64,000 bases of DNA from Chitinophagales bacterium (GTDB taxonomy: Bacteria > Bacteroidota > Bacteroidia > Chitinophagales > JADIYW01): contig JAMLHH010000014.1 of the NCBI GenBank assembly GCA_023957215.1, forward strand, positions 1 through 64,000, read 5' to 3'. A program made the position numbers and the translations under genes. Under the pieces are notes generated by a model that worked only from the letters and a program-made list of their open reading frames with translations, searched no databases and was not told where the DNA came from. Of this stretch, positions 2,061 through 15,247 are shown in pieces (positions within the stretch are counted from its first letter, which is position 1; the number at the start of each line of letters is the position of its first letter).

Positions 2061-4331
2061 ATGAAAGGCACAAAAAAGATTTTACTATTGAGTCTTATAC
2101 TGATGACTTGCTCAAACATAATAGCTCAAAGTATCCAAGTATTTGATAGTAAGGGTAAACAACCATTATCATTTGCACACATTGTGTTGCGTAATCTTGA
2201 AGATAATGACAATAGAAACAAATATTTTGTCACTGATTCGGATGGAAAGGTAGATATTCCCAATCAATATCTTCACAAAAGAGTAATAATAACAGCTTCT
2301 TTTTTAGGATACAACAATTATATAGACACAGTACAACTCGATCATACTCTTAAAATAACATTAGAGGAAGGAGCAGGCTTCTTAGACGAAACAGTGGTCA
2401 CGGCACAATACGTGCCTTTAGAGACAAGAAAGAGCGTACACAAAGTCATTGTTATAGATAGTAAGAAAATAGAACAGTTAGCAGCAGTCAATCTAAAAGA
2501 TGTTTTGGCCTATGAATTGAATATGCGTCTAACACAGGACAATATACTTGGCTCCAGTTTGACTATGCAAGGCTTGGGTGGCGAAAACGTTAAAATCATG
2601 ATTGATGGTGTTCCAATGATAGGGAGGCAAGACGGAAATTTAGACTTGAATCAAATTAATCTTTATAACGTAGAACAAATAGAAATAGTAGAAGGACCGC
2701 TATCAGTTAATTATGGGACGGATGCTTTGGCCGGTACTATTAATATTATCACAAAAAAACAGTCGCCATCCCCGCTTTCTGTCCAAGTAGAATCTTATAA
2801 CGAAAATATAGGGACATATAATCAAAGTGCAAATATGGGTATTCGTATTAAAGACATACATAGCATTCAAGTTTCCGGAGGACACAATACTTTCAAAGGA
2901 TGGTCATCGGACGACCCTTGGTTTTCTCTATTCAAAAAACAAGACTATCAAGAAGACGGGCGATTTAAAAGCTGGAAACCCAAAACTCAGAACTTTGGCA
3001 GATTTCAATATAACGTCAATCTCAAAGAATTTGTATTAGGATATCGTGGAGATATTTTTATTGAAGAAATAAGAAACAGAGGACTACCGAGACAACCACG
3101 AAAAACAACTGCCTTTGATGATACATACAGGACACTAAGAAATGACCATTCTATATATGGAAATGGGAGGATTGCAAAAAATTTCCATCTCAATGCAGTA
3201 GCAGGATATAATTACTATCAACGTAAGAAAAACACGTATTTCACTAATTTGGAGTCGCAAGAAGGTATATTAACAACAAATAGCGGAGATCAAGATACCT
3301 CTAAATTTATACAATGGATGGGAAGAGCATCTTTCAGTTCACAATTCTACAACAGTATAGTTAATTTTGAAACCGGAGTCGATTTCAACAGAGAGACAGC
3401 AACAGGAGTGCGTATTCTAAATGACAAACAAATTATCAGCGATTATGCCTTTTTTACATCTGCGGAAATAATTCCCATTAACGGGCTTACTCTACGTCCG
3501 GGAATCCGTCTTGCATACAACACACAATACAAAGCACCCATAATACCCTCTTTAAATGTTAAATACAGCTTAAAAGATTTTGATTTTAGAATAGCTTATG
3601 CGTATGGTTTTAGAGCACCATCTTTAAAAGAGTTGTACTTCGACTTTGTGGATATCAATCACAATATTGTAGGTAGTAAGGATCTGAAAGCTGAATATTC
3701 ACATAGTTACACGGGTAATATTCAATACAGAAAATGGAAAAAACATACGCTATACAAAACGGAACTATCATTATTTTTTAATGACGTAAAAAATCTAATT
3801 ACGTTAGTCCAATTAAAAGATGTTGAATATACCTACACCAATGTAGGAAAATACAAAACCATAGGAAGTGGAATAAAACAAACCTTTAAATGGAAATGGA
3901 TAGACGCTTTTGCAGGACTGAATATAACCGGACGCTATAATAGAATCAACGAAGAAGTCAAAGCTAAAACTTATAATATAACTTCCGAAGTTAATGCAGG
4001 ATTAGCACTCAATTGGGATAAAATAGGCTTGTCTTCAACTGTTTTTTATAAATTTCAGGGAAAACTTTCCAATTTAGTTTTAGATGCAGATAAGAATATT
4101 TTAGAACAATATTTAAAACCTTATCACATGTTAGATGCGCATATTACTAAACTATTATGGAAAAAAAGAGTGGGTATAACTGTTGGGGTCAAAAATATTG
4201 TAGGAGTTAAAAACATATCCTCTGTAGGAGCTTCAGTAGATGGAGGTGTTCACTCAGCAGGCAGTACATCTGTACCTGTTGCAATGGGAAGAATAGGCTT
4301 TTTAAAGTTCCACTTTACTTTTGCTAAATAA
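2061..4331 (+). CDS. TonB-dependent outer-membrane receptor (haem locus)
   Basis: 756-aa outer-membrane receptor. It has a signal peptide (about residues 1-22, ending IIAQ), an N-terminal carboxypeptidase-regulatory-like beta domain (about 23-105) typical of Bacteroidota receptors, a plug domain (about 125-235; VKIMIDGVPMIG, VEQIEIVEGPLSVNYGTDAL, AGTINIITKK), then a 22-strand-type barrel to the C-terminus. There is no SusD partner next to it, so it is not a SusC-type glycan importer. The neighbours (HmuV-like ATPase, HmuY-like lipoprotein) indicate haem import with energy from TonB/ExbBD, which are not in the window. Family assignment is secure; the substrate is inferred. Confidence 0.88.
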   Translation: MKGTKKILLLSLILMTCSNIIAQSIQVFDSKGKQPLSFAHIVLRNLEDNDNRNKYFVTDSDGKVDIPNQYLHKRVIITASFLGYNNYIDTVQLDHTLKITLEEGAGFLDETVVTAQYVPLETRKSVHKVIVIDSKKIEQLAAVNLKDVLAYELNMRLTQDNILGSSLTMQGLGGENVKIMIDGVPMIGRQDGNLDLNQINLYNVEQIEIVEGPLSVNYGTDALAGTINIITKKQSPSPLSVQVESYNENIGTYNQSANMGIRIKDIHSIQVSGGHNTFKGWSSDDPWFSLFKKQDYQEDGRFKSWKPKTQNFGRFQYNVNLKEFVLGYRGDIFIEEIRNRGLPRQPRKTTAFDDTYRTLRNDHSIYGNGRIAKNFHLNAVAGYNYYQRKKNTYFTNLESQEGILTTNSGDQDTSKFIQWMGRASFSSQFYNSIVNFETGVDFNRETATGVRILNDKQIISDYAFFTSAEIIPINGLTLRPGIRLAYNTQYKAPIIPSLNVKYSLKDFDFRIAYAYGFRAPSLKELYFDFVDINHNIVGSKDLKAEYSHSYTGNIQYRKWKKHTLYKTELSLFFNDVKNLITLVQLKDVEYTYTNVGKYKTIGSGIKQTFKWKWIDAFAGLNITGRYNRINEEVKAKTYNITSEVNAGLALNWDKIGLSSTVFYKFQGKLSNLVLDADKNILEQYLKPYHMLDAHITKLLWKKRVGITVGVKNIVGVKNISSVGASVDGGVHSAGSTSVPVAMGRIGFLKFHFTFAK

Positions 4332-10696: not shown

Positions 10697-13510
10697 TTAT
10701 TTACTCAAGAACATTGACTTTTCTCTATAAAGCTGTCTAAAGTATGCATCTTTCAAATCTTTTATGAAACGAATCGTTTCACCCGTTGATTTCATTTCAG
10801 GTCCGAGTTCTTTACTCACTCCCGGAAATTTATTGAAAGAAAAGACCGGTTCTTTGATAGCATACCCTTCCATTTTTTCTTTATATTCAAAATCTTTGAC
10901 CTTTTTAGTTCCTAACATAATTTTGGTCGCATAGTTCAAATACGGGATATTATATGCCTTACTGATAAAAGGTGTTGTACGGGAAGCTCTCGGATTAGCC
11001 TCTATAACAAATACTTTTTTATCCTTAATGGCAAATTGAATATTAATCAATCCTCTTATCTCCAAAGCTTTACACAATTTCTCAGTGTATTCTTTCATGG
11101 TATCTATGATGAACGGACCTAAACTGAAAGGAGGCAATACAGCATTGCTGTCACCTGAGTGGATACCTGCCGGCTCAATGTGTTCCATGACACCCATTAT
11201 TTTTACGGTTTCACCGTCATAGATTGCATCAATTTCCGCTTCAATAGCTCTATCCAAGAAATGGTCAATCAAAATCTGATTGTCGCCGATATGTTTAAGC
11301 AAATCGAGTACTGCCATTTCAAGCTCATCGTCATTGATAACAATCTTCATTCTTTGTCCGCCCAATACATAAGAAGGTCTGACTAAAACAGGATAACCCG
11401 TTCTCTTAGCGACCTCTAATGCCTGATCTGCATTGTGAGCGGTGCCATATTCAGGATAAGGAATATTGAGTTCTTTTAAAAGATCAGAAAATCTACCTCT
11501 GTCTTCTGCCAAATCTAAACTATTATATGAAGAACCAATGATTTTAACACCTCTTTCAGTTAGCTTTTCTGCCAATTTCAAAGCTGTCTGACCTCCTAAT
11601 TGTACAATTACTCCTTCCGGTTGTTCATGTTCTATCAATTCCCAAAGATGTTCCCAAAATACAGGTTCAAAGTATAGTTTATCCGCTACATCAAAGTCTG
11701 TAGAAACTGTTTCAGGATTACAGTTAATCATAATAGCTTCGTATCCTTCTTCTTTTAATGCTAAAAGTCCATGTACACAGCAATAGTCAAATTCTATACC
11801 CTGACCAATTCTATTAGGTCCGGCGCCTAAGACAATTATTTTTTTCTTTTCAGAGCGGATACTTTCATTTTCCACCCCAAAAGTAGAATAGAAATAAGGG
11901 GTAGCTGCATCATATTCTCCTGCACAAGTATCCACAGTCTTAAAGACTCTCATCACACCCAATTCTTTTCTTTTGGCATACACTTCATCTTCATCTACCG
12001 ATAAAATCCATGCGATTTGAGCATCTGAAAAACCATTTATTTTAGCTTCTTCTAATAAGTTTTTCGGCAAAGTGTCTAAAGTATATTTCCGGATTTCTTT
12101 TTCAATCAAAGACAAATCTTTAATTTGATTCAAAAACCACATATCTATCTGTGTCAGTTTGTGAATAGATGACAGTGGGACTCCCAGATTGATGGCATCA
12201 TAGATTTTGAAAATTCTATCCCAAGACGGCTTTTCCAAACTATCCAAGACATCCTGTATTCTTGTCCAACTTTTGCCATCTGCACCGATACCTATTTTTC
12301 TGTTTTCAAGAGATTGACAAGCCTTTTGCAAAGCTTCATTGAAGTTTCTACCGATACCCATTACCTCACCTACGGCTTTCATCTGAAACCCTAAAGTGGT
12401 ATCTGCTCCATGAAATTTATCAAAGTTCCATCTTGGAATTTTGACGATAATATAGTCTAAACTCGGTTCAAAAAATGCCGATGTCGTTTTGGTAATCTGA
12501 TTTTCCAATTCGTCCAAGCTATAACCCAAAGCTAATTTTGAAGCAATTTTTGCAATCGGATAACCTGTTGCTTTGGAGGCCAAAGCAGAAGAACGTGACA
12601 CTCTTGGATTGATTTCGACAACTATCACATCTTCCGTTACCGGGTCAACAGCAAACTGTACATTGCAACCACCTGAAAAATTACCTATATTTCTAATTAA
12701 TTTAATGGATTGTTCTTTTAGTTTTTGTTGTAGTTTCTCAGAAATAGTTACGGCAGGAGCGACAGTAATTGAATCACCGGTATGTACACCCATAGGATCT
12801 AAATTTTCTACCGTACAAACAATAATGACATTATCATTATTATCTCTTAACAACTCAATTTCTATTTCTTTCCAGCCGATGACCGCTTTATCCAATAAAA
12901 CTTCATGTACGGGGGAAGACTGAAGCCCGTGTGCAAGTAATTTTTCAAAATTATCGGGTTTATACACTATGCTTCCACCTGTACCTCCCAAAGTATATGA
13001 TGGTCTGATTACTATCGGAAAACCTATTTTTTGGGCAGCATCTTTCCCCTCTAACATCGAGTTAGCCACCATAGAAGGAGCACTTTTCAAACCTATTTTT
13101 TCACAGTACTCTCTAAATAGTTCTCTATCCTCTGTCGTCTCAATGGTATGCAAGTCCAAACCAATGACTCTCACATTGTATTTCTCCCACAATCCGATTT
13201 CAGAAGCCTCTTTACAAAGGTTGAGAGCCGTCTGACCTCCCATAGTAGGCAATACACAGTCAATCTGTCTTTCTTGTAAAATCTGCTCTATAGATTCTAC
13301 TGTCAAAGGAAGTAGATAAATATGATCGGCAGTGACCTCATCCGTCATAATTGTAGCCGGATTTGAGTTGATAAGAGACACTTCTACCCCTTCTTCTCTT
13401 AATGAGCGGGCAGCCTGTGACCCTGAATAGTCAAATTCACAAGCTTGACCAATAATGATAGGTCCACTACCAATAATTAATACGGATTTTATGGATGTAT
13501 CTTTTGGCAT
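10697..13510 (-). CDS. carB: Carbamoyl-phosphate synthase large subunit, without MGS domain
   Basis: Makes carbamoyl phosphate for pyrimidines and arginine from bicarbonate, ammonia and two ATP. The two homologous ATP-grasp halves are visible, each beginning with a Rossmann-like pre-ATP-grasp domain (GSGPIIIGQACEFDYSG near residue 13; GAGPNRIGQGIEFDYC near residue 560) and containing RPSYTLGGTGG and RPSYVLGGQRM. At 937 aa it ends where the roughly 130-residue C-terminal MGS-like allosteric domain of the 1073-aa E. coli enzyme would begin, so UMP/ornithine control through that domain is absent. I recall that short CarB is common in Bacteroidota. It is 25 bp downstream of carA. Confidence 0.95.
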   Translation of the reverse strand: MPKDTSIKSVLIIGSGPIIIGQACEFDYSGSQAARSLREEGVEVSLINSNPATIMTDEVTADHIYLLPLTVESIEQILQERQIDCVLPTMGGQTALNLCKEASEIGLWEKYNVRVIGLDLHTIETTEDRELFREYCEKIGLKSAPSMVANSMLEGKDAAQKIGFPIVIRPSYTLGGTGGSIVYKPDNFEKLLAHGLQSSPVHEVLLDKAVIGWKEIEIELLRDNNDNVIIVCTVENLDPMGVHTGDSITVAPAVTISEKLQQKLKEQSIKLIRNIGNFSGGCNVQFAVDPVTEDVIVVEINPRVSRSSALASKATGYPIAKIASKLALGYSLDELENQITKTTSAFFEPSLDYIIVKIPRWNFDKFHGADTTLGFQMKAVGEVMGIGRNFNEALQKACQSLENRKIGIGADGKSWTRIQDVLDSLEKPSWDRIFKIYDAINLGVPLSSIHKLTQIDMWFLNQIKDLSLIEKEIRKYTLDTLPKNLLEEAKINGFSDAQIAWILSVDEDEVYAKRKELGVMRVFKTVDTCAGEYDAATPYFYSTFGVENESIRSEKKKIIVLGAGPNRIGQGIEFDYCCVHGLLALKEEGYEAIMINCNPETVSTDFDVADKLYFEPVFWEHLWELIEHEQPEGVIVQLGGQTALKLAEKLTERGVKIIGSSYNSLDLAEDRGRFSDLLKELNIPYPEYGTAHNADQALEVAKRTGYPVLVRPSYVLGGQRMKIVINDDELEMAVLDLLKHIGDNQILIDHFLDRAIEAEIDAIYDGETVKIMGVMEHIEPAGIHSGDSNAVLPPFSLGPFIIDTMKEYTEKLCKALEIRGLINIQFAIKDKKVFVIEANPRASRTTPFISKAYNIPYLNYATKIMLGTKKVKDFEYKEKMEGYAIKEPVFSFNKFPGVSKELGPEMKSTGETIRFIKDLKDAYFRQLYREKSMFLSK

Positions 13511-13535: not shown

Positions 13536-14636
13536 TTACTTAATTAATTCAAAAAATTGATCATAGATATAAGCAGAATCATGTTCCTTTGTATATATGA
13601 TAGGTAAAAATTGAACTCCAAAAGCTTTCTTATTTTTAATGGATATTCCTTCTACCACTTCATCATTTAAGTTGACATGTGTAATCTGAATGAGAGTCGA
13701 TTTCTCCGCTTGTTCCCTATTGATAGTATAGCTGTAACTTTGAATAGTCGTTTCAGCTTTCCCTGTCATCAGATTTTTGACAGGCTGGTTATCACTCCTA
13801 TGTCCATGATTCATTTTTACTACTTCCACATTTTGGCTGATAGCCATGAGTTGGCAACCTAAACCTAAACCCAATAATGGTTTGTCAGTTTTCAAAATTG
13901 TCTGTATCATCCGAATTACCTCTCTCAAGTCGTTGGGATTTCCGGGGCCGTTTGGAATTAAATAAGCTTGTGGCTGGAATTTGTTGATTTCTTCTAAACT
14001 CGTATTGTATGGAAAAACCTTCACATAGGCATCGTGCCATACCAAATTATCCAAGATATTTTTTCTTACTCCCAAATCCAAAACCGCAATTTTAAACTTA
14101 GCAGTTTCTTCGCCCACAGTGTAGGCTTGTGGAGTACTGACATTTTTTAATAAATCAGTAGTGTTGTTTTTGGGATAATCTTTTAACTGTCGTTTTAATT
14201 CATCAATCTTTTCACCATTGGAAGAAAGAATACCCAACATAGAGCCTTTGCTTCTGATATGACGCACCAAAGCCCGCGTATCAATATCTTCAACACCGAC
14301 TACATCATTCTCTTCAAATAGTTCTTGCAGTCCCTTTTCCGCTTGAACCCTCGAATAATTATTAGCAAATTTATTACACACCAAACCGGCAATTTGTACC
14401 TTATTAGATGCAGACTCATTGGGGGCAACACCATAGTTTCCGACATGTGTATTTGTCGTTACAAGTATTTGACCACAATTGGATGGATCAGTAAAAATTT
14501 CTTGGAAGCCTGTCATTCCAACGACAAAGTTGATCTCACCAACTTTGATTCCGGCATTTCCACATTGTTTACCTCTAAAGACAGTCCCATCTTCTAATAG
14601 TAAAACCGCTTCCTGATTGAGATTAGTTAATTCCAT
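13536..14636 (-). CDS. carA: Carbamoyl-phosphate synthase small subunit, glutaminase residues lost
   Basis: 366 aa, normal length, full CarA_N domain (AVLLLEDGTVFRGKQCG, VGMTGFQEIFTDPS) and a class I glutamine amidotransferase domain. The catalytic residues are replaced: GICLGHQ is GLGLGCQ, so the nucleophile Cys is Gly (residue 258, 13863-13865) and the following His is Cys (261); the HPE motif is LPI (344-346, 13599-13607); the NHG of the active-site strand reads SYS. Scaffold elements such as NGPGNP and KMNHGHR...NQPVKNL remain, and the frame is intact, so this is an old, selected loss rather than recent decay. Such a subunit should not release ammonia from glutamine; it may only stabilise CarB. 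Confidence 0.93.
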   Translation of the reverse strand: MELTNLNQEAVLLLEDGTVFRGKQCGNAGIKVGEINFVVGMTGFQEIFTDPSNCGQILVTTNTHVGNYGVAPNESASNKVQIAGLVCNKFANNYSRVQAEKGLQELFEENDVVGVEDIDTRALVRHIRSKGSMLGILSSNGEKIDELKRQLKDYPKNNTTDLLKNVSTPQAYTVGEETAKFKIAVLDLGVRKNILDNLVWHDAYVKVFPYNTSLEEINKFQPQAYLIPNGPGNPNDLREVIRMIQTILKTDKPLLGLGLGCQLMAISQNVEVVKMNHGHRSDNQPVKNLMTGKAETTIQSYSYTINREQAEKSTLIQITHVNLNDEVVEGISIKNKKAFGVQFLPIIYTKEHDSAYIYDQFFELIK

Positions 14637-14722: not shown

Positions 14723-15247
14723 TTAGTTTTCTTCAACAGATTGATTGGGTTCCGAAATATCATTGGATTCATTCAGATTTGTTTCTTCATTCTGACTGAC
14801 ATCTTCGACATCATCTGTTTTTTTCTTTCTTCTCGATCTTCTTGTTTTCTTCTTATCATCAGTCGCCTCATGAACCTTTGTATAGACATTGTTAAAATCG
14901 ACAAGTTCTATATACGCCAATTCAGCATTATCACCTTTTCTAAATCCGGCTTTGATGATTCTTGTATATCCGCCCGGTCTGTCACCGATTGCGGGTGCAA
15001 CAGTTTCAAATAATTCTTTAGTAGCAAGTTTATCTTTCAAGTATGAAAACACCATTCTCCTATTATGAGTAGTATTTTCCTTACTTTTAGAAATGATAGG
15101 TTCTAAATAAGGCCTCAAAGCTTTTGCTTTTGCAACTGTTGTAACAATTCTCTTATTGACAATCAGTTGACCTGATAGATTGGATAATAGAGACAATCTA
15201 TGCTCTGATTTTCTTCCAAGGTGATTAAATTTTTTTCTATGTCTCAT
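14723..15247 (-). CDS. rplQ: 50S ribosomal protein L17
   Basis: 174 aa. The conserved L17 core is in the first 115 or so residues ([35 protein letters not shown]). The rest is an added tail, first very basic ([12 protein letters not shown]) and then acidic and Asn/Glu-rich, with low complexity; E. coli L17 has only 127 residues, and tails of this sort are known in Bacteroidota. It is the last gene of the alpha operon, just downstream of rpoA. Confidence 0.96.

Follow-up and report, generated by a model that had tools for sequence, protein, structure and literature searches.

An Erased Glutaminase Site in the Native CarA of a Chitinophagales Genome That Carries a Second, Intact Set of Amidotransferases

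Introduction

A CPS with a dead glutaminase is already known. Human CPS1 uses free ammonia and has an inactive glutaminase-like domain (PMC4655335), and in the CPS III of Alcolapia fish damage to the glutamine site accompanies a shift towards ammonia (PMC7657897). GMP synthetases likewise accept external ammonia (PMC10526850). In the NAD synthetase family, glutamine-dependent and ammonia-dependent forms of one activity are reported (PMC3376133).

Here we describe a carA-carB pair found in a stretch of 64,000 nucleotides (the window) that opens contig C6 in a Chitinophagales genome (2.88 Mb, 70 contigs). We call these genes native, to distinguish them from a second pair, on an island elsewhere in the same genome. 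The native pair resembles vertebrate CPS1 in several respects: the S2 glutaminase-like domain is inactive but kept as structure, the Cys is lost, the Gly293 tunnel position is changed and the synthetase sites are intact. Unlike the native pair, CPS1 is a single fused, N-acetylglutamate-dependent mitochondrial chain; here CarA and CarB are separate, CarB has no regulatory domain and a second, intact CPS is present. The fused chain and the C-terminal N-acetylglutamate site that identify CPS1 are thus absent (the subunits are separate and CarB has no MGS), and one feature of an ammonia-dependent CPS, loss of the Cys with a kept fold, is found in the native CarA. The native CarA may function in the manner of the CPS1 amidotransferase domain; it is not a member of the CPS1 family.

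The other known systems compare as follows. The CPS III of Alcolapia also has a damaged glutamine site, but it keeps the catalytic triad and has lost one glutamine-binding residue, whereas the triad of the native CarA is gone. Bacterial CarAB (E. coli; TIGR01368/TIGR01369) is likewise a two-subunit CPS and agrees with the native pair in sequence, fold and gene order; unlike E. coli CarAB, the native pair has no glutaminase residues and no MGS in CarB. The NAD synthetase family offers glutamine- and ammonia-using forms of one activity, but these forms are reported to differ by a whole domain, whereas here residues are erased in the kept domains of several enzymes. We found no report in the open-licence literature of a coordinated erasure that affects three or four amidotransferases and corresponds to the content of an acquired island.

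The Glutaminase Site of the Native CarA

The native carA (13536..14636, minus strand) encodes 366 amino acids and scores above the cut-offs of NCBIfam TIGR01368 (352 bits; cut-off 307) and of Pfam PF00988 and PF00117. A sequence-only reading of the window had described an intact 366-codon frame adjoining carB, with the nucleophile, NHG and HPE motifs lost, and it had equated the lost residues with the catalytic Cys269, His353 and Glu355 of E. coli. All of this is borne out. Aligned with 30 relatives, the native CarA has GLGLGCQ, SYS and LPI in place of GICLGxQ, NHG and HPE. Codon 258 encodes Gly instead of the catalytic Cys (C258G; 13863..13865, minus strand), codons 300-302 encode Ser-Tyr-Ser for Asn-His-Gly (E. 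coli 311-313; 13731..13739, minus strand), and codons 344-346 encode Leu-Pro-Ile for His-Pro-Glu (H344L, E346I; 13599..13607, minus strand). When the protein is aligned with PDB 1C30 (E. coli CarA), positions 258, 344 and 346 fall on Cys269, His353 and Glu355. Each of C258, N300, H301, G302, H344 and E346 is invariant in 120/120 other CarAs, and all six are changed in the window. One claimed catalytic loss, His to Cys at residue 261, has to be dropped: 17 relatives have N, Q or S there, among them both congeners, which have Asn.

The erasure of the site is far beyond chance. At positions conserved in at least 97% of the 120-CarA census, the native CarA differs at 25 of 92, and any other sequence at three or fewer. 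Most of these changes fall in the GATase half (21/55 versus 4/37 in the N-terminal half; Fisher p = 0.004), and a domain comparison at conserved positions gives 40/87 changed in the GATase domain versus 18/65 in the rest (p = 0.03). By overall identity, divergence is as large in the N-terminal half as in the GATase half. Codon 282 (13791..13793, minus strand) encodes Asp; the equivalent residue is Gly293 in E. coli and, in human CPS1, Gln318, which blocks the tunnel (PMC4655335). Asp282 would fit disuse of the internal tunnel, though the position is variable in other Bacteroidota (G, L, I, A or C). In sequence and fold the protein is a CarA, and it lacks the defining feature of the small subunit of a glutamine-hydrolyzing CPS, the Cys-His-Glu triad, having Gly, Leu and Ile instead. 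The residue changes support the view that it would be unable to hydrolyze glutamine by the known mechanism.

The locus itself is ancestral, since the order rplQ-carA, with rplQ (14723..15247, minus strand) and the ribosomal operon upstream of carA, is common to four other genomes (G001, G002, G010 and G004). Gene order is used here to place the locus because the long branch of the native CarA (1.8, versus a median of 0.21) leaves its position in the tree unfixed. The CarA site is intact in both congeners and in all other family members with a readable site, so the loss is not clade-wide, and no relative turned up when genome contigs were searched with the window CarA.

The Frame, the Fold and the Partner CarB

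Loss of the catalytic positions without damage to the frame had been taken as a sign of selected change, and simulation agrees that drift is a poor explanation. When neutral drift was simulated from the congener carA to the same identity, about 12 stops accumulated, and 0 of 400 runs stayed free of stops. The AlphaFold2 model of the native CarA has a mean pLDDT of 85 and a pTM of 0.86, and its best PDB match in a Foldseek search is E. coli CarA (TM 0.89), followed by human CPS1. Judged by its frame and its predicted structure, the native carA is not a broken gene, and the fold is kept.

The native carB (10697..13510, minus strand; 937 amino acids) lies 25 bp downstream of carA. Direct adjacency of the two genes was not found in the four family members read and is therefore derived in this lineage. 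The protein aligns with E. coli CarB (1BXR) over 925 residues, and in both of its ATP-grasp halves the residues for ATP and substrate are present. The equivalents of R129, R169, E215, Q285, E299, N301 and R303 in the first set and of R675, R715, E761, Q829, E841, N843 and R845 in the second are all retained. No MGS regulatory domain is found in it by Pfam; the island CarB, introduced below, has one.

A Second, Intact Set on an Island

A family search located a second carA and a second carB in the same genome, on contig C21, and no second carA in 12 other family genomes. The motifs of this second CarA (GICMGHQ, NHG and HPE) are intact. Both genes belong to a cluster, purC-purF-guaA-pyrG-carB-carA (C21:29804-39631, locus L005), which reaches the contig end and which we call the island. 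What was found comes near to the result that the sequence-only reading had named as contrary to its proposal, a second complete carA pairing with the window carB; this carA, however, is accompanied by its own carB of 1061 amino acids. The idea that the native CarA persists as a CPS1-like structural subunit stays reasonable, given the kept frame, fold and CarB sites, but it was conceived for a lone CarA and is incomplete in that respect. The claim that carbamoyl phosphate synthesis necessarily depends on ammonia is not supported, because an intact carA is present.

The island carAB is closest to another family, f24, with identities of 73-76% for CarA and 80-82% for CarB; PurC and PurF are 76-77% identical to f24, and the island CarA groups with f24 with full tree support. 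In f24, purC-purF and pyrB-carA-carB occupy separate loci, and guaA and pyrG adjoin neither. On these comparisons the island is foreign, and it would have been acquired horizontally. The island CarA gave one 44% match among viral contigs, with no sign of phage origin; among plasmids, the island GuaA matched ordinary plasmid or chromid guaA genes at no more than 66% identity, and none matched the island. As a separate observation, four amidotransferase systems have been brought together on the island from loci that are separate in the donor-like f24.

An island at the end of a contig, with a carAB closest to another family, calls to mind an assembly artefact, in which C21 or the island would come from another organism. 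Contamination is unlikely because the adjoining aroE occurs as a single copy with 66-70% identity to the congeners, the GC and GC3 of C21 and of the island are close to those of the window, and the contamination estimate of the genome is 1.16%. A cell that lacked the island would also find it hard to survive the native losses. We regard an artefact as scarcely credible.

The presence of an intact CarA in the same cell raises another thought, that the island CarA serves both CarBs. The window CarB would then still depend on glutamine, and the dead CarA would be a passenger or a regulator, as the divergence of its N-terminal half might also suggest. Yet the island CarA comes with a CarB of its own and shares only 34% identity with the native CarA, and the native carA and carB have come to lie 25 bp apart in this lineage. 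Such sharing seems to us improbable.

Other Native Amidotransferases

Low PF00117 scores of the native guaA and pyrG were the lead to a wider pattern. The native guaA (GMP synthetase; contig C35, positions 2454-3980 of locus L087, minus strand) has Glu at the catalytic Cys and an intact ATP-pyrophosphatase domain; GICYG has become GIEYG and SHGD has become SLSD, and the other two triad residues, His and Glu, are retained. In the native pyrG (CTP synthase; C67:7689-9293, locus L086) the catalytic Cys is Gly and the His is Arg (GxCLG to GIGLG, FHPE to FRPE). Both sites are intact in the island copies and in both congeners, with E. coli and other references also compared. As in CarA, the changes at conserved positions favor the GATase domain: 28/79 versus 34/188 in the synthetase domain for GuaA (p = 0.004), and 35/129 versus 16/175 for PyrG (p = 4e-5). 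Compared with a congener, PyrG is 80% identical in the synthetase domain and 50% in the GATase domain, and GuaA 67% and 43%.

The case of PurF is less clear. That the native gene is absent was considered and rejected, since a divergent PurF of 635 amino acids is present in this genome and in the congeners. This purF, of a long Bacteroidota type (C23:118909-120780; L090:8874-10781; minus strand) differs from six family members by H127T, G128E, N156G and D179G, the last at the Asp of the SDT motif; these residues were placed by motif, as the PDB alignment missed that part. The N-terminal catalytic Cys is present, and the GATase half has no excess of changes. On this weaker evidence from residue comparisons, the native PurF has probably lost glutamine-pocket residues.

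A general loss of amidotransferases can be rejected. PurL and TrpG/PabA, which have no island copy, are intact, as is GlmS, and the congeners have single, intact copies. Two glmS genes lie side by side (C31:1-2860, locus L088), one of them cut by the contig end; they are 56% identical over the shared part, and both have the N-terminal catalytic Cys. As both are intact, having a second copy is not in itself enough for erasure.

This selectivity bears on the order of events. The losses might have come first, in an ammonia-rich habitat, with the island later supplying the missing glutamine-dependent functions to a cell whose native set used ammonia. The island does consist of exactly the erased functions, and as a set it looks gathered by selection, given the dispersed loci of f24. 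General release from glutamine would not, however, leave PurL and TrpG/PabA untouched, and among family members with a readable site no relative with the loss but without the island was found; erasure together with the island occurs in one genome only. We consider it unlikely that the losses preceded the island.

The erased enzymes are of kinds that glutamine analogues such as acivicin target. It is thus conceivable that an inhibitor attacking the catalytic Cys selected the native losses, all the more as CarA, GuaA and PyrG are each without the Cys. But the Cys is kept in the island copies, PurL, TrpG/PabA and GlmS, and no biosynthetic cluster is seen on C21; nothing relevant to glutamine-analogue self-resistance with this gene set turned up in the open-licence literature. 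We hold this explanation to be very improbable.

Could the native enzymes be redundant remnants that are slowly decaying and no longer have a role, while the island does all the work? The long CarA branch points this way, as does the seeming loss of the congeners' 315-amino-acid PurC, which would be expected if the island had replaced it; this PurC type was not found in this genome. PurC is not an amidotransferase. The ratios of overall identity (CarA 5.0, PyrG 5.2, GuaA 5.9) also lie above the median of control genes (3.6), but they are within the control range (maximum 6.0), so that our case rests on which residues changed and not on overall speed. Against decay, five long native genes have no frame damage where the drift simulations predict 7 to 12 stops in the three tested, and the synthetase domains are conserved, as are the active sites of CarB. 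Decay without function is, in our judgment, unlikely.

Discussion

The explanation that we tentatively prefer, at a little short of an even chance, is a division of labor: the island enzymes hydrolyze glutamine, and the native CarA, GuaA, PyrG and probably PurF persist as ammonia-dependent synthetases. The genome would have gained the island with its intact glutamine-dependent enzymes, after which the native CarA, GuaA, PyrG and probably PurF would have lost glutamine hydrolysis and kept their synthetase parts, to run as ammonia-dependent enzymes beside the island set. The native CarA would make no ammonia and stay the structural partner of the native CarB, which would use free ammonia as human CPS1 does. 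The proposal starts from what is observed, namely the erased sites, the intact island copies, the conserved synthetase parts, the undamaged frames and the intact congeners. From these we infer that ammonia is used in the cell, that CarA is bound to CarB and that the island came before the loss.

Some observations speak against the division of labor. With its N-terminal half as diverged as the rest, the native CarA does not resemble a scaffold under tight constraint. PurF has its Cys and no excess of changes in the GATase half, the glmS pair is intact, and the pattern comes from one genome in 70 contigs. A bolder form of the proposal, which we find possible but doubtful, is that the cell runs two parallel amidation systems, an acquired one using glutamine (PurF, GuaA, PyrG, CarAB) and a native one retained for ammonia use by losing the glutaminase function alone, and that supply switches between them with the availability of ammonia.

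If the division of labor is true, several unrelated synthetases in one genome have lost glutaminase function, and kept the rest, as replacements arrived, and the genome is a natural experiment that asks what glutaminase domains are for. Glutamine and ammonia could be compared as nitrogen donors in matched pairs of enzymes that come from a single organism. For annotation the consequence is more immediate: standard annotation (NCBIfam) labels such proteins glutamine-hydrolyzing despite the absent site.

Two minor observations may be added. The CarA of one congener (G002) is a 100% match to the public MAG JAMLHJ01 (Chitinophagales bacterium ACE_NR_BACT7). The genome also has a second purC (C15:34192-34824, locus L135), which adjoins a sucC-like gene and is of neither the island nor the congener type; because of its different sequence type, we rejected the idea that the native PurC had been erased too.
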